This document shows positions 1 through 63,092 of a stretch of 64,000 nucleotides of DNA, piece after piece; position 1 is the stretch's first letter, and each line of letters starts with the position of its first letter. The DNA lies in contig JAGFMI010000003.1 of NCBI GenBank assembly GCA_021030905.1, forward strand, positions 806,001 through 870,000, given 5' to 3'. The notes under the pieces are model-generated. The model did no database searches, was not told where the DNA came from, and saw only the letters and a list, made by a program, of their open reading frames with translations. Source of the stretch: Pyrenula massariospora. Lineage: Eukaryota; Ascomycota; Eurotiomycetes; Pyrenulales; Pyrenulaceae. The translations under genes were made by a program, and so were the position numbers.

Positions 1-1150
1 CCGCTGAGCATGGCGTCATTGGAGCAAGGTTTGGGATCGGAAAGCTCCCTGCGGTCAAGGAAAATTCGTGTCTTCTGCCACAAAAGCCAGTGCACTTTAC
101 GCCAAAGATTTTCATTTGTAATGATCCCACATATCGGGGACGCGATAAGAGATGGCTAGTTACGACATCTTTGCATCGCTGGAAATGGCTTTCGCACACT
201 GGAGTTTTTCTTTGTGAGCATTTTGTGTTTGTCTGCAGGCGCGGTTATGATCAATGCATTGTAACATTATAGTTTCCATGGCAGGTTTTCGATCTGACGG
301 CCATACTCAGTCGCCTTGATGGGAGACGACCTGTCCTGATCGAGACATGCCAGAATCAGCCCGCGGTGGTGCCAGGGCGTAGGAGATGTAGAGGAAGAAA
401 ATCAATCATGCAATTTCTAATCCGATCACCGTATGATAAATCTTGTATGCGTCTTCCCGCTCCAAGGTAACACCAATCCAACGTATAGGGCTGGAAGGGT
501 GCATACCCTGCCGTGGTAGACAACCCTAAATTCTGCATCGATCCACAATGAGAAAGGGCGGGTACGCGATCTCTCAGGGATCGGCAAGGCTTGGCACAAT
601 GACGCATGGACGCTTTGCTGCATCTCGAAACTGGGCTGCCTCGTACATGAGGTACTCCCAGCGTCCTTTCCACAGCTGACTAGCTGTATGGAAGTAATCT
701 TTGTGTGAAGTCTTTACCCTGAGCGCGTTGCAAAGCAGACCGCCCGCCTTCCGCTCGCCAGGACCCCTCGCCCCTCCCCGCCCTGCGTACCTTCCCTTCC
801 ACGAACACCGTGAACAGCCCGCCGACAGACCGGTGCAACGTCTTCGCAACTCCCTCCTAGAGCTCACTTTCCCTCCTCGCGGTAGCGGCCTCAAAAATGC
901 CGACCTGGGATCGGATCCGCAATCGCGTTAGCGGTCACTCTGTATGCCTCCCTTTCCTTTCATCTAGATACATAATGTCCAATGCACCATCCCGCTCTAC
1001 TCCACAATCAAGGGAACAACTAGGATATTCCATGCTACGTGCACATCGCTCATGGCTCTCTGCCTCTGGCCCATCCCCTGCTTCTCCTTCTCCCGCAGAC
1101 TACCTCCACCCACATCAACCTCAGAGTCGCGGCTCGCGCAACCGCACCAG
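1..1150. other. Window edge, no supported gene
   Basis: Only short overlapping open frames with no recognisable protein are present on either strand. The last 200 bases are pyrimidine-rich and probably hold the promoter and 5' UTR of the NEDD8-protease gene that starts at 1151. An upstream gene may end to the left of the window. Confidence 0.4.
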
Positions 1151-2436: not shown

Positions 2437-3444
2437 CACGGGCTAGAGGGGGGAGTGGGGACTGGCCTTTTGAGTTCCCCAGTCGCCCAGGATAGGCGTG
2501 GGCAATTTTGGCTGGGCTGGCTGACTGAGCGGCTCGGTACGAAGGCTTGAAGAGCAGGTTAGCTTGGGGGCATGGGTGAAATGAGCGATGAGATCATGGA
2601 TGGATGATTGCAATGCAATGCAATGCGCCGGGCGGCGGGCGGGCGGGATGATGCGATGCGATGTCTGTTTTCTGTTCGTTCTGTCTATTTCAATGTGGGA
2701 ATGGCATGGGAAAAAGAGCATGGCGTTACACGATCGGTGGTTTACATTATCTTATTTTAAGCTATGAATTAAGGTAGTTTCGAGCTGGGTCTGAGTCGGT
2801 TCGACGGCTCTACCTAACGGAACAAAATATTCCGAAAACTGCGATCCAAGCTGTGTGTGTGTGTTGTGAATCTATCACGTCTTATATAAGCCTAAGACTA
2901 AGAATAAGACTAAAACACAGGGTAAGGAAAGCGCTTGGCCAAAGAGGGTTTTATCGAGATGTAGATAACAAGTACCTCAGTAAGCGATGCGGTATTCTGT
3001 CGTAAAAGGTGTTAAGGGATGGGATGGGATGGCAGGGGTTTAGCACGGAACTAGGTATGATAAGTGTTAGGAACGAAAGGTGGGCTCGAAGACGCTGTAG
3101 AAGTCGTGGTTGTTTCTGTGGTTCTGGAGGATACGGTTGATCTGATGATGAAGAGTGTTCACCGCGGAGGTCGACTCGTCTCGCTGTGAGAGGGTGTTGC
3201 GAAGGAGGAAAACGGGACTGTGACGTGAATTGTGGCATTGAGAAAGCGAAAACGGGGGCGCTGGGAGACGCGGTGGAGTTCTATGTTAGCGGTTAATAAT
3301 CAGGTAGAATTCGAAGCTAATGAAACGAGCTATTACGAAAGAGATGACAGATCTATTTAGCGAGTGATCGACTACTATATAAAATCAAACCGAAAAAAAT
3401 ACACCGCGATTCCCGCCCTTTTTCAAGACCCTAAACCTGTCACA
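2437..3444. other. Intergenic, 3' ends of converging genes
   Basis: No convincing coding frame. It contains a short GCAAT microsatellite near 2610-2630 followed by a GGGC-rich run. The plus-strand protease gene and the minus-strand Cys-rich ORF converge here, so both 3' UTRs are expected. Confidence 0.4.
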
Positions 3445-4143
3445 CTACAATCTAGATCTATACCCCTCCCCTCGCTTGCGCACTTTCTCCGAGTACGTCT
3501 TCTCGTACTTCCACTGCTGGTACCATACCCTCTGCTCCTGGATCTCCATCCTAGTCAAGTGCTTCTTCAGCCGTCGACGCTTCTCCGGACAACAGAGCCG
3601 GCAAGACATCCTCAGGTCCGTATTTCCGGGATGAAAGTTTCCGTTACACTCCTCACATGTATTGATCCTCCGTCCCTTAGGCTCAAGATTCAAATACCGA
3701 TGCTTACAGCACTCGCATTCCGTGGCCCTGTCGCACACAGGGGCACGGCGTTCGTCCCGGCACTGGTCGCTGAAGAGATATCAGTCTTGGCCGCAGTGGG
3801 CGCAGTAGAAGAGGGCATAGGCGAAAACACAATAATTGATGCGTGCATCTTCTTCAGCGCTGTCGCAGACTGGGTCATCGTCGTCTATGCTGTGGGGCTG
3901 GCGGCGATCGTGCTCATGGGATTCTTTTGAGCGGTCTTGGTAGGAATCGTAGGTTGTATTCTTCTTGGGGGAACGCCGATGAGCATCGCTGGCTTTCGGA
4001 CAGGTATCTCGAGAGCGCGTTTGCACATTCTGTGGTGTGGAATTGGAGTATGAGCGAGCGCTATTGTGATCACGGCGGGCGATTTTGTCCGTGTAATAAT
4101 TTTTTTCTTGTTCCTTAGAGACGACATATATTGTTTTCTTCAT
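3445..4143 (-). pseudogene. Cys-rich zinc-binding-like protein interrupted by an in-frame TGA
   Basis: Two minus-strand open frames, 4143-3781 and 3780-3445, lie in the same reading frame and are separated only by a TGA at 3783-3781. Before the stop the protein is basic and Ser-rich and ends in an acidic stretch followed by 'YCAHCGQD'. After it comes a run of Cys pairs ('CECCKHRY', 'CEECNG', 'CRLCCPEKRRR'), then a Lys/Arg-rich tail. Cys pairs on both sides look like one zinc-binding module, so the simplest reading is a nonsense mutation; CGA to TGA would be one CpG transition. An alternative is a 66-nt in-frame intron with a poor donor (GTTTTC) and a CTGAT branch site, which would delete the first Cys pair. 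I do not recognise the family. It may be a living gene with a mis-read intron, or a pseudogene. Confidence 0.45.
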
Positions 4144-6573
4144 CTTTTCAGTGCTAATGTTTGCTCTACGGAAAGCATGTGTAGGCTGAGGTAGGCGTCG
4201 AAATGGGGATCGGCGTTAATATTCAAAACAGATTGTCGATTTGGTTGCTGGTTCGATTTGATATACAAATTTAGGTATTGTTAAGCACCCGCGCTAGAAA
4301 GACGGAAATCAGAGACTACCGATTTCAAGGCTTCAGATACTTGAACCTGGAGCTCGTAACGTGTGGAGAGTTTTTGGAGAGAAGTCAGAGCGTATCTTTG
4401 CAGCCCTTTATACTATGACGGGAGTAATGGGTCGAGTCACGGGTTGAGTCAAGGTTGATGCTGTCATACAGTGCTTCGACTCAGGGCAGTGTTGAGCCAT
4501 TTTACGGACCCAAGAGTGACGCTTCAATATTGCGTTTCAAGGCGTGGTGAGCAGACAGTCTAAATTTCCTTTTTTATGCAAGCGAAGCAAGAGACAAAAT
4601 GGCCTAAGAGAAAAAAAGGGTTCATGTGTCATTAGATCATGCTCAAATTCAAAGCTACCTTCGTAACTTCACGAGTGGAATACATGCTTACATGGCACCT
4701 GAAACAGATCAAAGAGATATCAAGAAACGCTAATATGAAAGCAGACGTGGGGCACATCCGTCGAACTATTCTCATGAACCTCTCCTCACCTACGGAGCGG
4801 TAGACCTTTAAATGATATCTACGCATAGGCTTACAATTTTCCGTCGGGACGAAAAAAGCTTAGCAATTCCGAACTTGAGCCCGATTGATGAGCGCGGTAC
4901 TCCAGCTTGCATAACAATTAGCAGGTACTTAGAGATGTGGTAGATTCTCAGTGTGTACAACGTAAGTGAAAATGAAAGGGCTTTGTCCACTCAGTTGGGG
5001 AAATGAAGTAATGTTTCTCATGGCTTACATTTTGAAAGCTCGAGACGTTATGTGAATCAGCATTTGGAGGATCATCATAATGGACATGTATCCAAGCCAT
5101 AAGCTAGGGGTAGGGAAGAATGAAGCAGGGAGACACATCTGCAGGACGTAGTGAAAAGTCAACATACCTGTGAGCCACGGTATCAATGATCAATGTCCAG
5201 CCAGAGGTGTCGTGGAGGTCACTTTGCGACGATGGTATCATCGTCCTTATCATACTCATCTTGGCTGGTCCGGTGTATGCGAACATCTATTATCGATAGT
5301 CTAGTCGCCAACGACACCTTCATAAAGGTTCGTGCATGCTTGTGTCCCTCATTATTTATACAGCATCTGACCGTCTTTAAATTCCAACAATACCATCTCT
5401 TCCAAAATGCAGTCATGTAGGTCACCGAGCCCGTTCGTAGCTTTTCAACGTATCCATTCAGTAGCTTAAGCGATGGGTTGGTTCAGATTGCTCGGCGGCA
5501 TTCGATGTTGTACGGACGAATAGGCGGTGCAACATATTTTGGTAGGTCAGCCGCAGACAAGAGCAAACAGTTGCCCAAGGTCAGTCGGTGGAGCTCCATG
5601 GGACTCCTGTGATAGACGAAGGTAGATGGTACCAGTACTGAGAAGATCCGTGAAAAACGACTGAGTCAGCTGAAGGCCAGGTTCTCAAAGGCGTTTCTAC
5701 TAGATCCTGCACATTGCATGACTCGTGCACAGTCAGAAAGCCTTTTAAGAGGCGTTTAATGGATGAGTATTGCCGTGCGAAATATTGAAGATGAGGCAGA
5801 CTTTCGAGTGTTCATGTTGTGTTGAAATTTTAAGTGTCGCCAAGCAATTCACGGATTAAATGCGAAGTTTATTCCTGCAGAGGGCTGCTGTCGAACACAA
5901 GACTACTTAAACGATACACTAGACGCATTCTACTTCCACCACCGACTCTTTTATAATCAGAAAATTGGCTCATGGCTACTAGAAGGGTACCAGCTAATTT
6001 TTAAGCGTCTGTAAAATCGCCCCCAGTGCAACAACGCCTCCTTGCCAGGTCTCAACCCACGCACCACAACATTAGAGAAATTCTTCGCACGAAACGCCTT
6101 GAGATCGAAAGGAGCGAGGACAAGATGTAGGTCATTCATATCCGTCAAATAACAATCTCATTGCGTTCACTATTTAAATGCACTTGTCACTACTCCTTCG
6201 CGTCTTGGAGTTTGATCTGTCCTAGCCTTCTGACTTTATTCCATTCCCCAACTCCCGTCCTGTTGGGTATGCTGATCGGGGAAGTGCCCACATGGATGAT
6301 AGACGATTGTGTATGTCGCAAGGAACGATTGGGTAATGGCCTAGGTTGCTACTAAAGCGGGAAATAGACCGATCCTAACTTTCGAGATATTCAGAGAAAG
6401 AGGTATATTGAAAGCTAATGAGCGTGACGTAACAGGTCGTGTTAGTGCAGTTGAGCATCTTGGTCTTTTGGAGTAGACTGAGATCTCCGAAAGAAGATGC
6501 TTCGTCAAGCAGGTTCTGTAAATGCAGTGTTTGCGCTTGTGAACCCTGCAGTATAAGAAGACGTGGAGCGAGG
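4144..6573. other. Gene-poor region, 2.4 kb
   Basis: No supported gene. The longest suggestive piece is a minus-strand frame near 5957-6148 with a coding-like composition but no ATG and no recognisable family; it could be a relic or a missed exon. The left part should contain the promoter of the Cys-rich ORF. The rest is AT-balanced sequence with short frames only. Confidence 0.35.
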
Positions 6574-8217: not shown

Positions 8218-11200
8218 CTATCTCTGCACTTCCACTCTCTTCAGGGCTGCATCCTCCCTTAGCCACCTTCCACCCTCTCCATCTGCCTCACCAAGCGCCT
8301 TCTCCAGAGGTACGTCCCTCTTCTTCGCATCTGCCTTGCCAAACAGACAGCCCCAAAGATCCGCGTCTTTGACTAACTCTCCTCCGCCTTTACCCGAGGT
8401 GACCATCTTTGAGAGAATAGCATCCCTCAGCTCTTGACTGTTTGCCTGGTCCAACGTCGTCTCCTGCAATCCTTCCACTAGTGTTCCAGTACCTGTCTCA
8501 GACCTCGATATCTGCTTTGATTTCTGTGCTTTTATGTTCTTCTTCTCAGACCTCCGAACATGCTCCAACCTTCTCGCCACAGATATGTCGTAAATAGCCT
8601 CCTCGACCGTGTCACTCACAAGGTACATCCATACCGCGGTATTTCTTCTTTGTCCAATTCGATGTACTCTTGCGATAGCCTGTAGCTCAATTGCTGTGTT
8701 GACTAATGGCTCGCATAAGAACACATGGTTGGCAGCCGTTAGATTCATCCCTGCAGCATGAGCTTTCGCGTGCAGGAGGAAACACTCCGTGGCGGGATTC
8801 GATTTGAACTCAGACAAGCCGTTAGCAGATTCGACTGAGGAGTGGCTGATTTTCTGGTGGGTGAGGGCGCGGGAGAGGATAGAGAGAAACTCGCGGTATT
8901 GGGAGAAGATGAGGGATTTAGAGCCGGGGTCAGAATGGCGAAGCCAGACGAGGTGGCGGCATAGCATAGAAATTTTAGTACCAAAATGAGGCCCTGTAAG
9001 GTCAATGGATTTGATTTGGGAGAGATTCGAGGGGGAGATCGAGGAATAGATTGAGATGGTGGGACGATCGCTATTCGGGTTAGGGCTTGAGTGATTTGAA
9101 GATGAGGATGATAACGGAGGTGAGCCAGTGGATGGCTTTTCTTCGCTGATGACAGCCAACTCCTGGGGTTTATACGATATGTCATGAAGGTCAGCCATGT
9201 GGAGGCGGCGTTTACAGACCGGGCAAGTACGGTGGTCGTGATACCAGAGTTTGATGCAATCCTTACAAAACTGGTGGCCACAGACGGTCAGCGTACCGGT
9301 CTCGAAGTCAGATTGGCAAATGATACAAATTCTCGACTCTTGTGAAGTAGATTCTTTGCGAAGGTGGATGAGGTAACGGCGTTTTGCTTCGAGCTTCGAA
9401 ACTTTCTGGCCCGCCATTGATTCTTCCCGGAGTTTGGCGTCAAACAAGGCTTGGTCAAGCGCTTGGCCGACTGATTCTTCATTCCAGGGCGCAACAGTGT
9501 CCGATATCCTTTGCAGTTGGCGGTAGTATTCTAGTCGAAGGTTCATGGTGTCTCTGAACAATTCCAATTCCTTCTCAAGCGCATCGACGATCTTCGTCTG
9601 GTCCCTAGACATCTTAGTAGCAGCCTGCATGATATGGTCAAGGATGACAAGCTCATTCTTGGCACGAGAGTTCCCCAGACCCTCGCGCCACTCCAAGGAA
9701 TTCATAACTGCGCGTAACTCAACGATAATGCTGCGTAATGAGCCTAATTTCTTTGTGTCAGGTTTCATCCTCTGTCGAGCAGCGAGAACTGTCATAAACA
9801 GTTCTGGAGCAGGCCCAGCTCCTTCTTTCGCCATCCTCAAGGCCACCTTCATTTCATTTGTAATGAGCAAATTTTCTTGCCCAGTGATAGCTTCGTGGCG
9901 ATCGGCGAAGAATGCACGCAAGGCCTCCATATATACATACATCTCGTCCTGAAGCTTCGTTGAGGCCTCATACTCATCTCCCTTTAATTCGACACCTTCA
10001 TCCTCGTCTACCAGAGAATGAGATAAGAAATCGATCATTTTTTGCTTGTACTGAGCAAATGGCTCAGCCTGGGCATTCATGGCCTCACAGAAATCATCCA
10101 ACTTCTCTACCATGCGACGATTCTCGATGCCTTCCTGGAAGTCTGGCGATTGCATTTGAAGTATTGATGAAAACTTTGGACCAGCAAATTTATTTTTTAT
10201 CATTTCCATGTTCTTGTTAGCCTTCCCCAGGATTTCCACCAGCATTTCTGTACGAATGGTCTTGGCTTTTTCGTATGCATCCTCTTCTTTCTTTTCCCAC
10301 TCTTTGAAATCAGGGCTATCCGGCTTTGTCAATTCCTCGTTTGTTTTGATCTGGTAGCAAGCGTTACCGATGAAGAAGATGGCGATATGCTGCACTTCTA
10401 AAGCAGACCTCAGACGGACTCTTGCAGCCTGTAGGTTGGCAGGGTCTTCCTTCGCTTCGTCGAGAGATCCAGAAGATGTGCCCGCACTTGACGCAGAGGT
10501 TGCTTCGTGTCTCGCTGTCAAAGTCTTCAAATGCTCCCTACACTCATCAACAATAACGCTAGACCTTTCATATGCATCTTCCCACAATCGAAGAGCATTG
10601 AAAGGCTCTTTAGCGTTTTCAAATAGCTGCCCACGCCTTAACTGGGACAAAAGCACCGTCCGCTGCTCCGATCGCATAATCCCGTCGTTCTGGTCGATCA
10701 TGACCTCTAGCACGTCCATGACCGTCCGCAACGGGCCTCCACTCGCGCCCAGAGCTCTCCTATTTCGCCGGCCAACTTCGGGATGTAGGCATGTCTGGCG
10801 AAGTCTGATCAGCCATGTTCTCATTTGCTCAAGGGTTGAAGGTGAATTGGGGTTCCAATCATCTCCCACAGGTCCGCCACATTCGTCGAGACCACATGCT
10901 TCGCACATTTGCCGAAATTGTTCAAGGTAATGTTGCTCTTCAATAGGCGTAAACGGAACTGTGATAACATTGCGAGTCTGCGGAGGCAGCTGCAGATCTT
11001 CTCGGACAGCGTCCTTATTGTGACGAATAGCGATGCTGCTGATCATGGACTTGAAGGCCGCGGTATGAGATGAGAGCAACCGAGACCACAAATTCAAAGA
11101 ACGTGACCATGGTTCGCAATGTAAGAATAGGAGGAGCCCATAAAGATCTTTGTGGTCTTGCCTCAAGGGCGTTCCGGAGACTGCCCACGCATTTTCCCGT

Positions 11201-14511: not shown

Positions 14512-15731
14512 GCGGGTGGTAGTGGTGGGGTTTTGGGCAGGTCAGGGAAGGAGACGAGAGGCTCTGGGGAAGTGCCTACTACCTACCTACCGAATGACTC
14601 CGGTGATGACCGGGAATTTTAGACGTGCTGCATTGGATACCGGGCAAGAGAGACCTTTGTTTCTTCGATCCCATCAGAACATCAATATTCCCTCAATCTC
14701 CCGCCCATGCTCTCCGAGCCCACATCGATGCAAACCCCGTACGTTTCAATATCGACCTAATCGTGCCTGGATCCTCCAACACGCTCCAACCCAACCCAGA
14801 CAGCCACTCGTAATCACCAAGCACTCGTCCCGCTTAGACTCTCCATCCCCCATTCATATGTTTACCAAAAGCTAATAGCCGAACGAACGAATGTGTTCGA
14901 TTGCCCATCCTAAATCACTCTCTACCATACCAGCGGAGAACGTACGAAGTACAGTACAGTTGTGTGTACATGCGAGTCTATCTATCTGAATAACCTCGAT
15001 AGATATTTGTCTGCATTTGTAGAATGTCGAGCATGATTGGGAAGAGTGACAAGATTTGTGGCGTAGCATATCTGTCTTTGATTGATTCGCAGATCTCGCT
15101 TCGAGCAGGACTTTTATTATGACTCCGTGTCGTATGCTAGCAATAGGGAATTGGCCACGTCTAGTTTGGGGATAAGGTTGATATAGCCACCTTCGATAAT
15201 TACATCATTACTTGATTCTGATATTCCAAATATTATAGTTGGTGTTCCGACATCCCTATCACCTAAGCTGGGATGCTAAAGCGGCGAGCTCTGGGTAACT
15301 GTGGACCGAGCTCGGAGCAAGGTTCTGTACTCTTTTAGATGTCAAGGCTCGAGACAGGATTTACTCTTCTGTGATGACGGCATTTGTATTAATCAAGAGA
15401 ATAGGAGAGGAAGAGGCGCGTGAAATCAGCTGAATGTCAGGCTAAATCTTACGCACTTCATTGGCTTCGGCCAACATGGCTGACGGTGGCGCCGAACCTC
15501 CGTCAGGCTTTTAGGTTGTATTACTTGCAACTCGCATTTTGTATTCATATGCTAAACCTTCAATTATTATCATGACATCCGCATCTTTGCCTAGCAATGT
15601 CCTGCTTACCACTCACAGGTCGCTCTAGATGGGTAGCCTTAAGCAACCCCGTAACAACTTCTGCCGCCTAACAAGATGGACGTCTTCGAATCGCTCTAAC
15701 TCAATATAAGCTTTCAACTCGCTCTGAGTCG
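14512..15731. other. Intergenic containing a HET relic
   Basis: No intact gene. The interval 15245-15425 carries a degraded HET-domain fragment, listed separately. The remainder has no recognised content and includes the promoter of the HET gene that starts at 15732. Confidence 0.45.
15245..15425 (+). pseudogene. Degraded HET-domain fragment
   Basis: The stretch 15351-15417 matches 16001-16067 in the intact HET gene 650 bases downstream at about four of five positions. It translates residue for residue as 'RQDLLFCDDGICINQEN' against 'RQDVLFWVDGICIDQEN', the second HET motif. It then runs into a TGA. About 90 bases upstream, 'YHLSWDAK' looks like a shortened remnant of the first HET motif (YALSYVWG). 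No open frame joins the two. This is a relic of a tandem HET copy, not a functional exon. Confidence 0.6.
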
Positions 15732-17486
15732 ATGGATACCTACAAATATGAGCCGCTTCCGTCTTCACAGCATATACGTCTTATCAAGATTATCTATGAG
15801 ACAGACTGCGATGAGCTCATATGTCAAATTGAAACTACTTCTCTTGATAGCATAAATGAATACTACGCTCTATCCTACGTATGGGGCATTCCGCTTAAGA
15901 CACATGGTATTCGTGTTGCCAATCAAGATGGACGCACGCTATTGATTACAGCTTCACTATTTGAAACTTTGACAGGCGTACGCGACTGCGGAGACTTGAG
16001 ACAGGATGTATTGTTCTGGGTTGATGGTATTTGTATTGATCAGGAGAATAAGACAGAAAAAGGCCATCAAGTGGCCCTAATGCTTGAAATCTACAAGCGA
16101 GCAAAGGGAGTGATCACATGCATAGGGCCGGCTCCCCACGACCTAGACCATGCGATCTCAACGATGGATCAATTGTGGAGCTTCTGGAAGTCTAAGATTC
16201 GAGAGAATAAGCATGCGTACTTCTTTGATTCTTATAGCCTGGACACTTTGGAACAGGTTGGTCTTCCTAACCGAACAGATCCGAGATGGCTTGCTTTTCG
16301 AAGACTTCTTGCTCGCTCCTGGTCACGACGAATTTGGATCATTCAGGAGTCAATTGTCAATAAAAACATGATAATGCTCTGTGGTACAAGACTCCTGGAC
16401 TGGCACCGCTTGGTGACGATCGGTCATCTGAGCAGGAGAGGACCGCTTAGAGTTTGCGTTGTTCTGCCAGCAGACGGTATATACAATGTCGAGTTCAAAG
16501 GCATAGATTATGTCTACAGGATTCATCGAATGAGGAAGTCTAAATTTTCGGTACCACTTGTCCAATGGCTTGAATGGGCTCGCCCTTATAAATGCAACGA
16601 CCCTAGAGACAGAATTTTTGCTTTTCTTGGGCTCGCCAGTGACCGCGACACGCTGAAAATCTCTCCAGACTACGAAATTTCCACTGACGAATTATATACA
16701 AAATGTACCGCCCGCATACTGGAGGTCGACAATCGTCTGCGGTCTCTCGAGAACGCCCCTGTTCGAAGCGACCTTTTTCTGCCATCTTGGGTCCCTGATT
16801 GGTCCGTAAACCCGAGTTGGGTGAATTTGCCCTCTTATCTTTTCACAGCCGGTGGGGATCGTGATACGCAGCCTAGTTTCTCCGATCATCTATCTCGATT
16901 TACGGTTAACGGTATTCTTGTTGAGGAAATTCACGAAATTTGGGACTTATATATAGACTTGCAAACTAAGAGCTCAATCGTCGCAATTCTTGAGATTCTG
17001 TGGAGATTGAAACGATTCCCAAGACACGAACAACCTAAAAGCGCGTTTACAACGCTGTGGAAGACACTTATTGCCGATGTACATATCGCTAACAACGTTT
17101 CAAAGAGATCAACGAATGAAGATGAAAGACGCTTTGAATCGGTTCTATATTGTGCAGTAAAGTCTCTCTTCGCGGAGAGTAATCGAGAGATGAGGAAAAT
17201 GTTACTTGCTCAACGAAGGGAAGCGCGTCATTTCTATTCTTTTACTCAAAGCTATGGGAGAGGGCGACGTATTTGCATCACTCAGTCTGGATACTTGTGT
17301 CTAGCTCCCAAACAGGCTCGAAAGGGTGACTATTTCTGTGTTCTCGCCGGGGCGAGGATCCCCTTTATCGTGCGCGCTATCCATGATAAATACGAGCTGA
17401 TTGGAGCAGCATATGTCCACGGAGCAATGGATGGAGAGCTTATAAATCAATGGGAAGGGCCGTTGCAGCGAATTACGTTGATCTGA
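15732..17486 (+). CDS. HET-domain (heterokaryon incompatibility) protein
   Basis: A single uninterrupted frame of 584 residues starts at an ATG shortly after a pyrimidine-rich leader. The HET domain is at the N-terminus: 'YALSYVWG' at 45-52, 'LFWVDGICIDQEN' at 94-106, 'EIYKRAKGVITCIG' at 119-132 and 'RSWSRRIWIIQESI' further on. This spacing is usual for the family. HET domains are TIR-like modules that trigger regulated cell death on recognition of non-self in filamentous ascomycetes. The C-terminal two thirds has a typical HET-gene layout with 'NDPRDRIFAFLGLA' but no NACHT, WD40 or ankyrin part, so this is the short 'HET only' class. The specific recognition role is unknown. A degraded relative lies directly upstream. 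Confidence 0.85.
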   Translation: MDTYKYEPLPSSQHIRLIKIIYETDCDELICQIETTSLDSINEYYALSYVWGIPLKTHGIRVANQDGRTLLITASLFETLTGVRDCGDLRQDVLFWVDGICIDQENKTEKGHQVALMLEIYKRAKGVITCIGPAPHDLDHAISTMDQLWSFWKSKIRENKHAYFFDSYSLDTLEQVGLPNRTDPRWLAFRRLLARSWSRRIWIIQESIVNKNMIMLCGTRLLDWHRLVTIGHLSRRGPLRVCVVLPADGIYNVEFKGIDYVYRIHRMRKSKFSVPLVQWLEWARPYKCNDPRDRIFAFLGLASDRDTLKISPDYEISTDELYTKCTARILEVDNRLRSLENAPVRSDLFLPSWVPDWSVNPSWVNLPSYLFTAGGDRDTQPSFSDHLSRFTVNGILVEEIHEIWDLYIDLQTKSSIVAILEILWRLKRFPRHEQPKSAFTTLWKTLIADVHIANNVSKRSTNEDERRFESVLYCAVKSLFAESNREMRKMLLAQRREARHFYSFTQSYGRGRRICITQSGYLCLAPKQARKGDYFCVLAGARIPFIVRAIHDKYELIGAAYVHGAMDGELINQWEGPLQRITLI

Positions 17487-54132: not shown

Positions 54133-56350
54133 CTATACTATGGTGATGACATACCGCTCATCTTCGTATTCTGGGTTTTCAAGAGTGTAAGCACAATCTG
54201 ATTCGGCGGTCTTCTTCCCGGCTTTTTCCAGTAACTTGCAAAGGCGAGCATAGTACGTATCCCAATCAGCTGTGACGAAAGTACCAATCCTATGATACTC
54301 GCCTATTCGAGCGTTCGTCCGTTGAAGACATAGACCTTGGAAGTTCTCGAGGGAGTAATTTGCCCAAAATAGGGGCAAAAGGAAAACAACAGAACCGACA
54401 CTTGCTTCACAGTCTAAACTGATCATTGTCCTCAGATCTCCTAATGACTCGACACAATATTCAAGGTCTTGATCTTTCATGAGCTTTCCACTAAGCATGA
54501 ACTTACAACCAACGGTGAGGGTTCCACCCGAGACTTGTCCAAAATGGTCTGGTCCACAAAGTGTTACTTGAGCATCAAGAACATGGGTACAAAGATGCAA
54601 GCCGCTTGTGTCTTCCATATGCATTAGCTCGTGAGTCCTGAATATCAATCCACCCTCAACGGAGGCCCATGACCAGCTAGGTGCTACGTCGGTCCTGACT
54701 GGAGGTCTTTGCCCACTACGACACCTTGCGGACCAACTTAACTGGAGCTCAATCTTTCTCCTCCATAAGCCGGCCAGATATTGGTCGTTGTTCTCTTCTT
54801 GCATAGCGCGAGCTATCCCGGCTATAGCGAATAGCTTATCCCTTTGGAATGTGAGCCTTGCTTTGCAATAAAGCTCCAATATTGCATCCCAATCGTCGCA
54901 AATTGGTCCCTTCTTGACGCGGAATTCAGGCGAAAGGGGATATGCGTGTCGAGGGAGCATGTCTGGAAAAGTTTCGCAACAGTCTTTAACTCTACAACTC
55001 CAAAACATTTCCGTGCCTGTAAAGTAAAGGGTCCGAGGAGCTAATATACGCTCCTGTAAAGCCCACCCTCTGTCTGCAAGAGGGGAGAAGTCCACTGAAC
55101 CAGTAAACGTAATCCCCGATGTGAATTTCCAGGCGCCCCCATCAGGGGTACCCATAGACACGTTCCCAACGTACCTTTCTGGCTTGAGAAAGCAACCATG
55201 GCTACCATCAACAGCACCTGCTGCCGCAATGTTGATGGTTGAACCACGATAAACTGAGCTCATAGTCGCTGATTCTCTCTCCCAGTCTAAGATCGAATCT
55301 TGTATGATGCAGAGTGAGTCAATCCATAAATAGTCGAGCCCGAGTTTTTGGGTGATCTTAATAGCGTCCTTAAATGTTTTTGTGAGCTCGATTACTGGCA
55401 CCATTCTCTGGAAAGACTGTAATGATCCTTCCTTAAGTCTTTTAAACTTCTGCTCTCCCCAGCAATGACTTAATGTGGCATATTTCGGTCGCGTCTCCCA
55501 ATTCTCGGTTGTGACTAAGCGCACCGGTATTGCGCTGACGTTAAGAAGTCTTGTGGGTAGTTGGTGATGCCTTTGTTCATTGCAACGGCTGTGGCTGGCT
55601 AAACACGCATCAAGCCATGCTCTTGCTAACTGAAGTTGTGTCGAAGCTTGCTGCAGCATTCGTTCTCCAGAGACTGGGCAGTCTATCAGATGATAATTAG
55701 TGATGATGCTATTGAACATAGGGATGTGTCTCACATGTAGCGTATACTGATGGGCTCCTTCCGCATCCACTGGTCGAAATACCTGGGGATTGCAATTTCA
55801 GGTCATAGTAATTTACCCGCTCACTGACCAATATTGAGACCCCCGAAGGTTTTTGAAGGCACCTCAGGCGATTTTCAATTTTGCGGAATGCTTTCAAATA
55901 TTGTGGAGCCAGTATATCTTGTAAAAACCGTAAACAAAAGTGGCATCCATTCCTCTGTGAAGCCTCGAACTCGGCAATGCTTCGGAAATGCGGCCGAGAG
56001 TGGTCTTTGTGTCTTGAGAAGGAGACGGCACGCATGGTCTCAGGCCAGCTGTCCAGGAAGTTTCGACATTTAGCGCAACGTCCGTCGGATACTGTAACCC
56101 TGACCATTAAGCTCTGGATCTCTTCTTCGACTTCCGTCTCGTTCAATTCGTCTTCCGTCTCGTTCAATTCGTCTTCCGTCTCGTTCAATTCGTCATTCTC
56201 AAGAAAATACTCATAAAAATCATGACTTTTGATATATTTTTCATACCACTCCTTTAAGTTAATGTGACCTGGGTTCCCACAGCAATAGCTCGATTGCAGC
56301 TTGTCACTAGTTCCATTACTATCGTGATGAAAACGATTCTCCGTTTCCAT
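54133..56350 (-). CDS. HET-domain protein with N-terminal Cys region and acidic repeat
   Basis: Two exons, 56350-55829 and 55782-54133, joined by a 46-nt intron (GTCAGT donor, CCCCAG acceptor); 723 residues. The junction reads 'GVSIL|VFRPVDAEGA'. The N-terminal domain has an acidic stretch with three ELNETED-like units at 54-73, then CxxC pairs 'CAKC' and 'CHFC' that are common in this HET class. The HET domain follows at 'YATLSHCWG' (275-283), 'DYLWIDSLCIIQDS' (324-337) and 'VYRGSTINIAA' (351-361). After it, 'DRGWALQERILAPRTLYF' is another class hallmark. Members act in non-self recognition and cell death, but the ligand is not known. The donor and the very short intron are the least certain elements; a frameshift instead of an intron would make this a pseudogene. 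Confidence 0.8.
56131..56193. repeat. 21-bp perfect tandem repeat, 3 copies
   Basis: Three identical 21-base units lie head to tail inside the first exon of the HET gene and encode the seven-residue acidic unit ELNETED on the minus strand. The identity of the copies points to recent expansion by slippage. Confidence 0.85.
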
Positions 56351-57836
56351 GTCGAAGAATGGATAGTGGCATCACAACCTGTGCCACCGTGGATAAGTAG
56401 AAGAGTACTTGCTCCGAACTTCAAGAGGCTCAGTGAAGCGGGGTTCTTGTGTAACCACGATTTATGAACAGATCAGGGTAGGTACTGAAGATAAAAAAGC
56501 ATGAACCTCCAACGAGTTAGAAGGAGGCGAGAAGTTGCGTTAACCTTAATGATTGCAAGGAAATTTTTGTGGAAATTCTACGTAAACATCATAGAGCCCT
56601 TTTGGTTGTATGCCTCGGTCTTTTGCCTTCTCAGGCGAGGTCAAACTTCCACTACGATCGCCTGCTGGAAGCCTCTCTGCAGTCGCACTAGCTCTATACC
56701 ATTGCTGCGATACGATTGCAATGATTCCACTTATATTCGATACAGGCTCCTCGATTCCAATTCCACCGCTACATCGCGCTCTACTTCGTACCATTCCCCC
56801 CCAAACTTTACCAGACTGCTTTTTGGCCAGTATCATTGGCACTTGTGCCTCTGTCTTCGCGCCTTCAATTTCCTTTCTCTACGAGTTTCATAGTTGCACA
56901 CTGCCGTCAGCTTGCGAGGTGTGGCTTGATTCGGCTTCCAACTGCTGGCGCTTTGGCCATTGCTTCTTCTCTTCTAGGCGTTAGTCTTTGAGCCCGACAG
57001 TATGAGAGAGCTCGTCGGTCCGTCTCTCGGGGAACATCTTTCCGCGAGCAAGTTGTTGAATTAGAGAGCTGGTAAAACACTGGATCTTCCCATGCCTGTA
57101 TCTAGTGTAATATTTGACAAGGCGGCTGAGCTTTCGGAAAACATCATTCTCTTTATTTCTACTCTTAGATCTGACCAGCCTTGTTATTTAAATCTAGCTA
57201 GGCTCAGAAGGGTACTGTAGAAATGAGGCAGCTTTGAACCTTAAAACAGGCTATTACTGAGTATCTATCTTGTAGATCTTGCACGCAAAGGCGCACGACG
57301 AAAAGCTTGGAGCTCCCCTTCATCACGGGCATCGACGCCTACCTCCCAAGTCTAGACTTCAACGTACATGCTCAGCGGCTTGACTGGGCTATAACTGCTT
57401 CTGTGGAGAGACATTGATCTGACGGGTTCTAAATCGCGTGATCCGGCGGCGAAAAGTCGTCAGAGCAATTCTCGGCTTGGTGCCGATTGGTCCACCAGTA
57501 GACTTCCAAAGTTTGACACACTCCAATCAGGTTAGGATATATATCAACGACCTCTTTACCTTGCGGTGATTGTCTTAGGAAGTTTTTAAGAAACGTTGAA
57601 CCTCAAGTTTATTGAGATGCGAGATGAACGGGAGCGTCACGGCACGGAGCCGAACTGGCGCCGATGCCGACGCGATGATGTCGGAGATCTTATCTGCTTG
57701 ATAATTGTGAGAGCGCTGCGATAACTCCTGTTCGAACCCTAATAGTAGGTCTACTGTTGGTATATTGACCTTTGTTATTGTCTTTTCCTTGTCGTTGAGC
57801 GTGGGTGATCGTTGTTTCTCTGTAATCCTTTCTACT
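56351..57836. other. Intergenic, 1.5 kb, divergent promoters
   Basis: A plus-strand frame 56610-56984 (124 residues) starts with ATG but has no recognised motif and seems accidental or relict. The region separates the HET gene and the cyclotransferase gene, which fire outward. Confidence 0.35.
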
Positions 57837-58955
57837 ATGTCCTCCGGCTCGATTCCGCAGGAAATGGGCTCTTCCCGAGCAGTGCAAAGCTGCATGCTTT
57901 CAGAATTAGAACATAGCATCCCCCCCCTTTTCAGACGAGTCAAAGCCACAGAGACTGGCAGGAGCGTTTGTCGTCCTTCCCAACAGCGCCTCCATCAATC
58001 TCTATCCGACCATCCGATCTCCAATCTTGCTGACCTCAGCTCCCAATCTGAGACCGTCCTGTACCTCGCCTATGGCTCCAACCTCAGCGCTGAAACCTTC
58101 CGCGGCTCCCGCGGAATCAAACCCCTCTCCGAGTTCAATGTCGTCGTCCCATCGCTAGTAATGACCTTTGACCTCCCCGGCGTCCCCTACACCGAACCCT
58201 GCTTCGCCAACACCGCCCGCCGAGATCCCAATCCCCCCTCAGAGAAAGACTCTCCAACAAGCAACGATTACCACAAGAACCGCTGGCACAAGGGCCTCGT
58301 AGGCGTCGTCTACGAAGTCACAAAATCAGACTACGCCCACATCATCGCCACCGAGGGCGGCGGCAGCGGCTACCAAGATATCCTCGTCGATGCCTTCCCA
58401 CTCCCCGAAGACTCGTCTGCTGCCGTCCCGGAAAATCCAGACAGCACGCCCTTCAAATGCCACACCCTGTTCGCGCCCGTGGGGGAGAGTCGCGCCGCAC
58501 GCCCAGATCCCGCATGGGCGCAGCCGAGTTCGCGCTACAAGAAGCTGATCACCGATGGCGCGGATGAGCATGATCTCCCGACGGAGTACAAGGAATACTT
58601 GCATGGGTGCAGGACATATAGTCCGACAAGCACCCGGCAGCGGCTGGGTCAATTCGTGTTCCTGTCGATATGGCTGCCCGTCATCACGACGTTGTTCACG
58701 AGCGCAAGAATGTTTGCAGATAAGGACGGGAGGTATCCGCCGTGGCTGGTCAAGATATCTGAAGCGGTTTTTACGGGGATGTGGGCGAGCTATGACGGCT
58801 TCTTTAAGCCGTTGTTTGGGGAGGGGGAGCGGACTGTGGGGGATCAGGAGGAGAGGCGGAGACCTGAGGGGCGGAGGCTACTAAGGAAGAGACGGCCTGA
58901 TAGTTGGAGAAGCTATGGCGCGCTTGACCCGGAGAAATGGGGCGATATGATATGA
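57837..58955 (+). CDS. Gamma-glutamylcyclotransferase-like protein
   Basis: A single exon of 372 residues. After an 85-residue variable lead comes 'TVLYLAYGSNLSAETF', the conserved start of the GGCT fold that binds the gamma-glutamyl group. It is followed by 'PLSEFNVVVPSLVMTFDLPG', 'PYTEPCFANTARRDP', 'KGLVGVVYEVTKSDYAHIIA' and 'EGGGSGYQDILVDAFPLP'. GGCT enzymes form 5-oxoproline from gamma-glutamyl peptides in glutathione turnover; this fungal subgroup is longer, with a hydrophobic segment 'FVFLSIWLPVITTLF' near residue 285 and a basic C-terminal region, so membrane association is possible. Activity is not proven. The ATG at 57837 was chosen as the first ATG after a non-ATG frame opening. The stop codon lies within a GATAT microsatellite. 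Confidence 0.78.
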   Translation: MSSGSIPQEMGSSRAVQSCMLSELEHSIPPLFRRVKATETGRSVCRPSQQRLHQSLSDHPISNLADLSSQSETVLYLAYGSNLSAETFRGSRGIKPLSEFNVVVPSLVMTFDLPGVPYTEPCFANTARRDPNPPSEKDSPTSNDYHKNRWHKGLVGVVYEVTKSDYAHIIATEGGGSGYQDILVDAFPLPEDSSAAVPENPDSTPFKCHTLFAPVGESRAARPDPAWAQPSSRYKKLITDGADEHDLPTEYKEYLHGCRTYSPTSTRQRLGQFVFLSIWLPVITTLFTSARMFADKDGRYPPWLVKISEAVFTGMWASYDGFFKPLFGEGERTVGDQEERRRPEGRRLLRKRRPDSWRSYGALDPEKWGDMI

Positions 58956-58970: not shown

Positions 58971-59602
58971 CATAATGTAATTTTCGAACCTGGTTGAAAC
59001 AACGCTTAGACTAAGCTTGAGTTCGTTACGCAGTACTCATTTCTACTACTCTTTCCAGCTTGTCTAAATAACGTCAATCTTTTCTTTAACCCCTCTCTAA
59101 CATCTATCTCTACATCTCATCACCACCTTAACCTCTGTATTTTCATATTCCTCCCCCCTCAACCCTCACAAGACACACAAATCGGGAAGCTCCCTGCGTC
59201 TCGCCTTCTCGAGGCTTGGTTATAGACGTACGGCGCTGCCGAACTAACCATGGCCGGCTGGCGGGACAAGGGGATGTGAGCACGGCTGTCGTTTCGTCCA
59301 TTAAGTGAGCCACATGTCACTGATTAACGCTGTAAAACCACTCTAAGCTTCAGCACGCACTAAGAATGACTTTGAAATATGATATTATGAGATAAGTATG
59401 CTAATATCTATCCATGTTCATGTAACCGTCTCTCCATATGTCTTCAGCAAACGAATGACCGACCGACCGACCAACAAGCCCAGGAAATCTGTCCACCATC
59501 GAGATCTATACTTAAATCTATCGACCAAGAAAAAGGAAAAACAACCCAAGTCGTATCACATCATGTCATGTCATGCACGTCCGCCTCCCTGTATCCATTC
59601 CT
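58956..59602. other. Intergenic, converging 3' ends
   Basis: No gene. The cyclotransferase-like gene and the repeat-precursor gene converge here. Confidence 0.5.
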
Positions 59603-60351
59603 CTAGTCGACATCAGGCGCTGGGGTCACGTCGTAGCCGCCTCTGGCGATATCATCGTCTCGCTTATCGACATCAGGCGCAGGCGTAACATCATACCCAC
59701 CCCTCGCAATCCCATCGTCTCGCTTGTCAACATCGGGGGCTGGTGTCACATCGTAACCTCCTCTAGCGATCCTGTCTTCTCGCTTGTCGACATCAGGGGC
59801 TGGCGTAACATCATACCCACCCCTTGCGATGCCGTCCTCTCGCTTGTCAACATCGGGGGCAGGAGTGACGTCGTAGCCGCCCCTAGCAATTCCATCTTCT
59901 CGCTTGTCGACGTCAGGCGCTGGTGTCATATCATACCCGCCCCTCGCGATCCCATCGTCTCGCTTGTCAACGTCTGGGGCTGGGGTCACGTCGTAGCCGC
60001 CCCTGGCGATATCGTCGTCGCGTTTGTCAACATCTGGGGCTGGCGTCACATCGTACCCACCCCTAGCAATCCCATCATCCCGCTCGTCAACCCACGGACT
60101 AGGCGCAGGAAGAACGCCGTGGCCGCCACAACAGCTCTTGCTGCCGACGTAGGGAGTAGGAGGCTCCGGGTCGACGCAGTAGCACTCTAAGGCGTTCGGG
60201 GCACGGGCGCTTCGGCCGCTAAGGGGAGGAGAGGTGTTAGGATTTGGTACTTGAGAGGGTTGGGGTGGGAGGCTTACCGGGGAAGGGAGTTGACAGCGGT
60301 GAGGAGGGAGAGGAGGGAGATGATGGTGAGGAGGAAGGGGGTTTTGCCCAT
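59603..60351 (-). CDS. Secreted Kex2-processed repeat precursor with eight peptide units
   Basis: Two exons, 60351-60278 and 60218-59603, separated by a 59-nt intron (GTAAGC donor, CCTAAC branch, CCTTAG acceptor); 229 residues. Residues 1 to about 22 are a signal peptide (MGKTPFLLTIISLLSLLTAV). A leader of 50 residues with CYC and CC pairs ends in 'VDER'. From residue 72 to the end there are eight units of the form DDGIARGGYDVTPAPDVDKR, the last without KR. Lys-Arg between units is the site for the Golgi protease Kex2, so an 18-residue peptide would be released after carboxypeptidase trimming. Units vary only at position 1 (D/E), 3 (G/D/R) and 11 (V/M). This is the layout of fungal Kex2-processed repeat proteins, including dikaritin RiPP precursors (ustiloxin type) and pheromone-like peptides. 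No UstY-like enzyme is nearby, so cyclisation at Tyr is only a possibility. Confidence 0.85.
59606..60079 (-). repeat. Eight 60-bp coding tandem repeats
   Basis: Seven full 60-base units and one of 54 bases encode the peptide units. Silent positions differ between units, and several alternate every second unit (for example the Val-Asp codons and the Gly-Tyr codons), as expected if a two-unit block of 120 bases was duplicated. It is not a CRISPR array: repeats have no spacers and are in frame. Confidence 0.9.
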
Positions 60352-61667: not shown

Positions 61668-63092
61668 TTACACGGACTTTGTTCCATCACGTTGTTCAGC
61701 TTTGCGTCGTTCAGTCTTGCGCCGGGCCTGCTCTGCTCGCCTCCTGACTCGTCTCGTGTGCGAAGCTCTTTTCCAGAACTTCTTGTTGATGTTGTCCCTG
61801 ACATTACCATCTTCATATTCTATCCGTGTTGGAAAGTACACCTGTAGCATTGCCAGTCCAGCCCCGGGGACCCATTTCTCGAGCTCCTTTAATGCGCCTT
61901 GCGTCCTTACAATGTCCTGTGGGATCCGTAGTGGCTCTAACCACTCTGGAGTCCCGTCATTCTTGTCCATTGTTTCCAACCACTGTGGGATCTCTCTAGG
62001 GTCAGCTCCTTGTTCATTTACCCATTTGTCCGCGGATGACACGTCCCGAAGCGCTTCTGCCAGGTCGACATTGGGGTTTGGATCATCTTGAAATTGAAGA
62101 GACTTCCCTGTAATTGTTGGCATGCGCTCGAAAATCTTTAGCTGTAGGCCTGTGGTATGTGATCGCCGCGTCGCTCCAGCCGCATAGATATTTTGTAGCA
62201 TGCCAAGTCCACCGGCTCCGACTATGTACCAGGCATTCGCTTTGAGTGCGGAAACGCTCAATAATAGACAAACCCATAGAGCTGCAAGGATAGCAAATAC
62301 AAAAGATGTCTCCGAACGAACAGCTCCTCTGGCCGTTGCAAAAGCCTCCAAGTCGGGGGAGCCCGGGCTGCCTATAAGCACCATGATATGCTTATGGCCA
62401 TTGCCTCTCGTAATGCAAATAACGTTATCTCTAAGAAGCATTGCTCCCGCCCACTTCTCTCCTCTCCATTGTGGCAAGCAGCAGGTTATGTGTGCAAGCA
62501 TGTTACCGCATAGCACGACCATCATTGCCCCCCAGTCTCCGTGTACAACCCAAGGAGGGATCGCAAGCCCAATTTCAGCAAGAATTGTCAGCCAACCCAT
62601 CCACCAAACATGGTCCGGAAGAGGCTCTTGAAGAGGCCCAAGCTCAAAGATATCAATGCGGAGAGAGTCGTTCTTCTCGTCAATCGGGTTGCGGGCCTCA
62701 TGGTCTCTCAGAAGTCGTTCGATTACCCAAGACTTATTGTCCCGTTGGAACCCATTGGCACAATTGACCACGATAGCTGAATTTTCTGGGGCTGGCAATA
62801 ATCTCCTATCACCAACGGCGGATAGAATTTGGCTGAATCCAAATGCTACCCAGCCGAAAGAAAACGCAACAGGTGTGAGTGGAAGTACAGCAAGCGGAAG
62901 CGATGGTTCGCCAGCGTCTGTTGAAGACTGGACAGAGTTGCCCTGTCTTCGAGCCGGGAGGCGGAGGGTATATCCTACTGTCTGTGCGATGGCTTTTTGT
63001 ACGATATCGCCGCCGATGAGAAGGAGAAGGCTCAGGATGTCTGCTGGGTTTCTCCACTGCTCTCGGAGCTCGTTAGCCGTAGTATTTGACAT
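61668..63092 (-). CDS. Fungal multi-pass membrane protein, uncharacterised
   Basis: A single exon of 474 residues from ATG 63092. It begins 'MSNTTANELREQWRNPADIL' and then 'SLLLLIGGDIVQKAIAQ', followed by 'PVAFSFGWVAFGFSQILSAV' and four or more later spans ('VWWMGWLTILAEIGLAIPPW', 'AMMVVLCGNMLAHITCCLP', 'FVFAILAALWVCLLLSVSAL', 'AWYIVGAGGLGMLQNIYAAG'). The C-terminal 150 residues are soluble, with 'EWLEPLRIPQDIVRTQGALK' and a basic Arg/Lys-rich end. I have seen proteins with this N-terminal pattern in filamentous fungi, with no agreed function; some sit near non-self recognition genes. It is transcribed away from the next gene, whose start lies only 284 bases off. Function is left open. Confidence 0.65.
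   Translation of the reverse strand: MSNTTANELREQWRNPADILSLLLLIGGDIVQKAIAQTVGYTLRLPARRQGNSVQSSTDAGEPSLPLAVLPLTPVAFSFGWVAFGFSQILSAVGDRRLLPAPENSAIVVNCANGFQRDNKSWVIERLLRDHEARNPIDEKNDSLRIDIFELGPLQEPLPDHVWWMGWLTILAEIGLAIPPWVVHGDWGAMMVVLCGNMLAHITCCLPQWRGEKWAGAMLLRDNVICITRGNGHKHIMVLIGSPGSPDLEAFATARGAVRSETSFVFAILAALWVCLLLSVSALKANAWYIVGAGGLGMLQNIYAAGATRRSHTTGLQLKIFERMPTITGKSLQFQDDPNPNVDLAEALRDVSSADKWVNEQGADPREIPQWLETMDKNDGTPEWLEPLRIPQDIVRTQGALKELEKWVPGAGLAMLQVYFPTRIEYEDGNVRDNINKKFWKRASHTRRVRRRAEQARRKTERRKAEQRDGTKSV

Follow-up and report, generated by a model that had tools for sequence, protein, structure and literature searches.

Kex2-processed repeat precursors (KEPs) were defined by Le Marquer 2019, whose main text counts 1193 of them in 226 species and sets a minimum share of 15% of the protein for the repeats (PMC6339444). 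In the list of Umemura 2020, a KEP holds at least three tandem repeats of 8-100 residues between KR, KK, RK or RR sites; by its main text this list comprises 7878 KEPs, sorted into 838 types and 2560 stand-alone precursors without homologues, and 22% of the KEPs adjoin a DUF3328/UstYa gene at a mean distance of 3.09 genes (PMC7329392).

Two product classes with a similar precursor design have been described. Dikaritin precursors (ustiloxin, phomopsin and asperipin-2a type) are multi-unit proteins that carry KR sites together with a conserved Tyr, and for the ustiloxin/phomopsin type a YXIX core is given in the main text of PMC7329392. Ascomycete alpha-type sexual pheromones have cores of a two-Cys form, with PYGXPXG reported for Dothideomycetes (main text of PMC6339444), and nearly all pheromone KEPs are without a nearby DUF3328 gene (main text of PMC7329392). 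In mushrooms, Vogt 2022 detected KEP peptides that are linear and bear minimal modification, and used Pichia pastoris to express mushroom KEPs; kep knockouts of Coprinopsis are reported to have no visible phenotype (PMC9769878), so the role of a KEP such as the present one may be hard to show. A survey of lichen RiPPs describes two RiPP clans without conserved repeats, and the string 'trypetheli' has no occurrence in its main text (PMC12048977).

The locus described here lies in a 64-kb stretch of DNA (positions 806001-870000 of contig C27 of genome G000), hereafter the window. The best reading of it is that of an apparently lineage-restricted, single-copy, UstYa-free KEP, which would belong to a known class and whose sequence is apparently new. 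It resembles the stand-alone KEPs of the two lists, as characterized in their main texts (PMC6339444, PMC7329392), in its signal-like N-terminus, in its three or more tandem units between Kex2 sites and in the share of the protein that these units fill; it differs from them in a unit that found no match in the searches run, in a first border made of Glu-Arg, and in its leader, which has four Cys and perhaps a decayed unit. The sequence-only reading had likewise recognised a Kex2-processed repeat precursor, although its restriction of the class to pheromones, repellents and dikaritins was too narrow, 2560 of the 7878 listed KEPs being stand-alone. Taken alone, the present KEP is ordinary for its class; what it chiefly adds is evidence at the codon level, the occurrence of Glu-Arg at the first border, what may be a decayed unit in the leader, and a dikaritin test that failed here while positive controls were available in the same genome. 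With it, a strongly conserved and unmatched peptide, from a lineage that probably forms lichens, joins a large and functionally little understood class.

Structure of the precursor gene

The gene is read from the minus strand (60351-59603) as two exons with a product of 229 residues, and its splicing and expression are inferred from these features of the DNA. Exon 1 (60278..60351, 74 nt) starts with the ATG of position 60351 (sequence context CACAATGGGC) and encodes the hydrophobic N-terminus and the first residues of the leader. It would be followed by an intron of 59 bp (60277-60219) that opens with GTAAGC, holds a branch-like CTAAC and ends in TTAG, and for which folding found no structure. 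Exon 2 (59603..60218) encodes the rest of the leader, the eight units and the stop codon (59605-59603). Removal of the intron puts the hydrophobic N-terminus in frame with the repeat exon, and the ATG frame left unspliced meets a TAA right at the intron start. The frame, the intron and the translation reproduce exactly the gene limits 60351-59603, and agree with the signal-like N-terminus, leader and repeats that had been proposed from the sequence.

Residues 1-22 (MGKTPFLLTIISLLSLLTAVNS; 60286..60351, minus strand) form a probable signal peptide, judged by hydropathy alone (mean of 2.51 over residues 6-20), with a cleavage point that is a guess. The leader that follows (residues 23-71; 60080..60285, minus strand, interrupted by the intron) carries C37, C39, C54 and C55 and ends in Glu-Arg (GAG CGG, 60085-60080), not in Lys-Arg. 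Its tail, GGHGVLPAPSPWVDER (60080..60127, minus strand), aligns locally with GGYDVTPAPDVDKR at a BLOSUM62 score of 38, which is matched by 2 of 5000 shuffles of the leader in a comparison picked post hoc. This tail may be a decayed ninth unit, or else the array may have grown out of the leader.

The eight units and their borders

Eight units of 18 residues account for 144 of the 229 residues (63%), with seven Lys-Arg sites between them, and Tandem Repeats Finder reports the array at 59606-60091 with a period of 60 and a score of 503. On the minus strand, unit 1 (DDGIARGGYDVTPAPDVD, 60026..60079) is followed by the Lys-Arg at 60025-60020, and a Lys-Arg also follows unit 2 (DDDIARGGYDVTPAPDVD, 59966..60019), unit 3 (DDGIARGGYDMTPAPDVD, 59906..59959), unit 4 (EDGIARGGYDVTPAPDVD, 59846..59899), unit 5 (EDGIARGGYDVTPAPDVD, 59786..59839), unit 6 (EDRIARGGYDVTPAPDVD, 59726..59779) and unit 7 (DDGIARGGYDVTPAPDVD, 59666..59719). 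Unit 8 (DDDIARGGYDVTPAPDVD, 59606..59659) runs directly into the stop codon, so that all units share the C-terminus DVD once their Lys-Arg has been trimmed.

The units fall into five variants, which begin with DDG (two units), DDD (two), DDG together with a change of Val to Met (one), EDG (two) and EDR (one); residues 4-18 are fixed except for that single Val-to-Met change. The residues directly after each Lys-Arg are DD or ED, the sequence from the Tyr onwards reads Y-D-V-T, and the net charge of the acidic 18-mers ranges from -3 to -5. For the five variants as linear peptides, the calculated [M+H]+ values are 1832.8297 (DDGIARGGYDVTPAPDVD), 1890.8351, 1864.8017, 1846.8453 and 1945.9250. The sequence-only reading had described eight near-identical units of 18 residues, which holds with the qualification that the unit it quoted is that of two of the eight, and it had expected each unit to be followed by Lys-Arg and eight peptides to be freed. 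There are only seven Lys-Arg pairs, and seven units would be released cleanly: unit 1, being preceded by Glu-Arg, remains joined to the leader unless that pair is cut. An EF-hand-like reading of the uncleaved border DVDKRDDG was considered and dropped, as its Gly varies to Asp and Arg.

Constraint on the coding frame

Comparison of the eight units shows variation at every one of the 18 third codon positions, against 3 of the 36 other positions (Fisher p = 1.4e-11), of which two are first positions and one is a second position (out of 18 each). For the described frame, pS is 0.75 and pN about 0.04 (pN/pS 0.06). Among the other five frames the ratio exceeds 3 in four, and one antisense frame has a ratio of 0.09, a value to be expected because the free positions of this frame coincide with those of the coding frame. 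The copies are thus old and conserved as protein, since their synonymous sites have changed heavily and residues 4-18 have stayed fixed. As no homologue is known, this conservation is visible among the units of one gene only.

The same mode of constraint is seen in two UstYa-linked KEPs of this genome, designated L066 (11 units, pS 0.77, pN/pS 0.03) and L008 (five units, pS 0.70, pN/pS 0.06), which indicates that constraint at the protein level is usual among such genes of this genome and does not distinguish the present one.

Searches for homologues and paralogues

When about 5.8 billion proteins were searched, the whole precursor gave 48 candidates, none at E <= 0.01, and residues 28-116 gave 163 candidates, none at E <= 10. 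This search is word-based, requiring shared five-residue words and similar length, and distant relatives can escape it. Comparison of the precursor with Pfam, NCBIfam and PDB returned only matches below cut-off or of weak E value, taken as chance. In the genome itself (37.8 Mb in 33 contigs) the array is present in one copy, and no paralogue was seen genome-wide, the two weak matches elsewhere (E 0.42 and 0.98) lying in places where inspection of the frames by eye showed no repeat precursor. A text search of the literature with pieces of the unit found as its only match a different string on an unrelated subject, and the unit matches none of the cores named in the compared text passages of PMC6339444, PMC7329392, PMC9769878 and PMC12048977. 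Hence the search for a well-described peptide family that had been proposed earlier found none at the protein, Pfam, NCBIfam, PDB or text level, and the suggestion that the core fits no known family and that the product may be new stands as far as these searches go. KEPs with unique repeats are common, so that an unmatched core is usual among them.

The coverage of the protein search was controlled with the neighbouring protein at 61668-63092, for which at least 400 matches at E <= 1e-5 were found among 8000 candidates scored. The best among the 120 matches listed is 80% identical and comes from a metagenome-assembled Trypethelium eluteriae, a member of the Trypetheliaceae in the Dothideomycetes. 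Both this family and T. eluteriae are lichen-forming. By this one protein, the family is also the probable source of the window. That no precursor was found for T. eluteriae may reflect a true absence or a small spliced gene that was missed.

UstYa and tyrosinase genes in the genome

The dikaritin arrangement was looked for with genome-wide searches. These gave 82 exon-level matches to UstYa, 79 of them over the cut-off, and none within the 64-kb window; the nearest lie 86 kb to the left (C27:779259-779567) and 428 kb to the right (C27:1294573). The sequence-only reading had proposed a check for UstYa/DUF3328 genes within 30 kb outside the window; none was found there. Tyrosinase has 26 matches in the genome, the nearest at C27:501-502 kb, 363 kb off. 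In the window and 40 kb beyond, the HxxHC motif occurs five times, in frames of 63-124 residues, and at no UstYa match. Elsewhere, a comparison of the two lists by eye places UstYa and tyrosinase within 8 kb of each other in six places (C1:33-40 kb, C4:509-513 kb, C7:111-119 kb, C8:323-326 kb, C11:2987-2993 kb and C28:1554-1558 kb).

Within the window and the adjoining 40 kb, a simple KEP finder, set to look for an open frame with at least three fragments that resemble each other and are bounded by dibasic sites, returned no gene but the present one. At UstYa loci it found a KEP in one of four fetched 10-kb neighbourhoods (L066) and in two of 30 short loci (L008 and a third KEP, L025). Its misses include L064 and L065, both of which have UstYa and tyrosinase, and may come from short stretches, introns or single-unit precursors. 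The dikaritin arrangement therefore exists and is detectable in this genome, if only at some of the UstYa loci, and the present locus does not show it.

L066 (C11:2985001-2995000; precursor at 4585-5229, minus strand) has 11 units of VGYAYTTV(E/D/Q)E, most of them separated by KR, and sits between a tyrosinase-like frame (3039-3470), which is over the cut-off genome-wide and below it when tested alone, and several UstYa frames (8379-8810 and others); it is a probable dikaritin cluster. L008 (C32 near 497 kb; 2-442, plus strand) has five units of the form DSDAA(T/S)(L/F)WDSDG(V/I)SE (DSDAATLWDSDGVSE) and adjoins the best UstYa match of the genome, and its DSDAAT start resembles the DADAATXYV motif given in the main text of Le Marquer 2019 (PMC6339444). 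L025 (C32 near 1139 kb; 28-423, plus strand) has three PHIYA(E/Q)YIREAEPE units (PHIYAEYIREAEPE) and also adjoins a UstYa match. The present KEP shares with all three its mostly KR-separated units, and with L066 and L008, the two for which this was tested, a strong constraint at the protein level; unlike them, it is not beside a UstYa gene. The occurrence of UstYa-linked KEPs and a UstYa-free KEP in one genome makes the proposed split between cyclic and linear products testable.

Proposed processing and role

We consider it likely that the precursor is a KEP whose product, after cutting by Kex2 and trimming of the Kex1 type, would consist of linear, unmodified acidic 18-mers with a role in extracellular signalling or interaction. 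The precursor would enter the secretory pathway through its predicted signal peptide, and the Golgi protease Kex2 would cut behind the seven Lys-Arg pairs, after which a putative Kex1-type carboxypeptidase would strip the Lys-Arg tails and leave every unit ending in DVD, like unit 8. A kexin gene is present in the genome, with a P_proprotein (P-domain) match at C9:270925 that exceeds the cut-off and lies in a locus where a long reading frame with a subtilisin-type domain is recognised by eye. The secreted mix would hold seven linear 18-mers in five variants; unit 1, short of a cut at Glu-Arg as well, would remain attached to the leader and its Cys residues. These peptides would probably be neither cyclised nor trimmed by Ste13: the Ste13 signature used in the main text of Le Marquer 2019 is XA or XP (PMC6339444), and with DD or ED behind each Lys-Arg a trimming of dipeptides is not expected. 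Cleavage, trimming, linear state and function are all inferred from the sequence; the 18-mers may act outside the cell, and their possible targets, in what is probably a lichen fungus, would be the algal partner or neighbouring microbes. A more specific version of this proposal, which we regard as unlikely, would make the blend of linear acidic 18-mers, with their nearly invariant IARGGYDVTPAPDVD stretch, a lichen signal specific to one lineage (Trypetheliaceae or a close group), acting at contact with the alga or with neighbours and encoded by an array amplified from the leader tail.

Alternative explanations

The absence of a homologue from the protein search, together with the fact that the plus strand is also open over the array (59573-60190), could suggest that there is no gene at all and that a chance open frame crosses a tandem DNA repeat. 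This is scarcely credible, however, given that the changes among the units are confined to the third codon positions of the described frame with the low ratio reported above, that amino acids vary freely in the open plus-strand frame, and that the antisense frame with the ratio of 0.09 is broken by a stop in four of the eight units. An uncleaved secreted protein of the surface or wall, with the KR pairs merely a part of its repeat, seems most improbable as well. Some fungal wall proteins do have internal repeats with Kex2 sites, and cleavage at KR is here itself a prediction; yet KR stands at seven of seven unit borders, the last unit ends where trimmed ones would, a kexin gene is encoded in the genome, and the C-terminus, DVD, is without the hydrophobic tail of a GPI anchor.

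The remaining alternatives concern the nature of the product. A dikaritin-type cyclic RiPP, in which UstYa-family oxidases from other loci of the genome would cross-link the conserved Tyr, has in its favour the repeat precursor with one conserved Tyr and the abundance of UstYa genes, which could act at a distance, and there is a slight lean towards modification in the enrichment of Tyr in the repeats of DUF3328-linked KEPs (65.6%, vs 38.2% of others, according to the main text of PMC7329392). We nevertheless judge it rather improbable: against the published mean of 3.09 genes, the nearest matches to UstYa and tyrosinase are 86 kb and 363 kb away, D-V-T follows the Tyr where the ustiloxin/phomopsin type has its YXIX core, and KEPs that do adjoin UstYa exist in the same genome. 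An alpha-type sexual pheromone precursor of this fungus would have the same design of signal peptide, leader and KR-separated repeats, and would agree with the lack of a nearby DUF3328 gene. This reading we hold to be very unlikely, as none of the eight units has the two-Cys form or the PYGXPXG core, and none shows Ste13 dipeptides of the XA or XP kind. In favour of the pheromone reading, a search of the genome with exact patterns revealed no second gene of this type: the patterns gave eight matches (control, six) and six matches (control, five), none of them in a KR-repeat context by eye; this pattern search is weak, so the pheromone reading is only weakened. The interpretation as a stand-alone KEP with a linear product is the one that we prefer.

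Genomic surroundings

Fifteen stretches of the window and its right flank were scanned with Pfam, in addition to the precursor. Next to the KEP gene lie the protein at 61668-63092 (minus strand), without a Pfam match over the cut-off, an AIG2-like match below the cut-off at 57765-58955 (plus strand) and a HET protein at 54133-55770 (minus strand). To the right follow a NACHT/NPHP3_N protein, an MFS transporter at a distance of about 6.5 kb, an ICMT-like methyltransferase and a further HET protein. These surroundings do not look like a biosynthetic cluster.

The region is rich in genes of self/non-self recognition. Within about 45 kb of the KEP gene there are three HET-domain proteins among those tested and one NACHT-type protein, the Pfam matches lying at 15672-17486 and 54133-55770 of the window, at 1430-2947 of locus L039 and at 845-2503 of locus L038. 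A further small repeat in the window, at 56126-56194, consists of 3.3 copies of 21 bp with 97% matches, and encodes a DELNETE repeat in the frame 55709-56350 of the minus strand.
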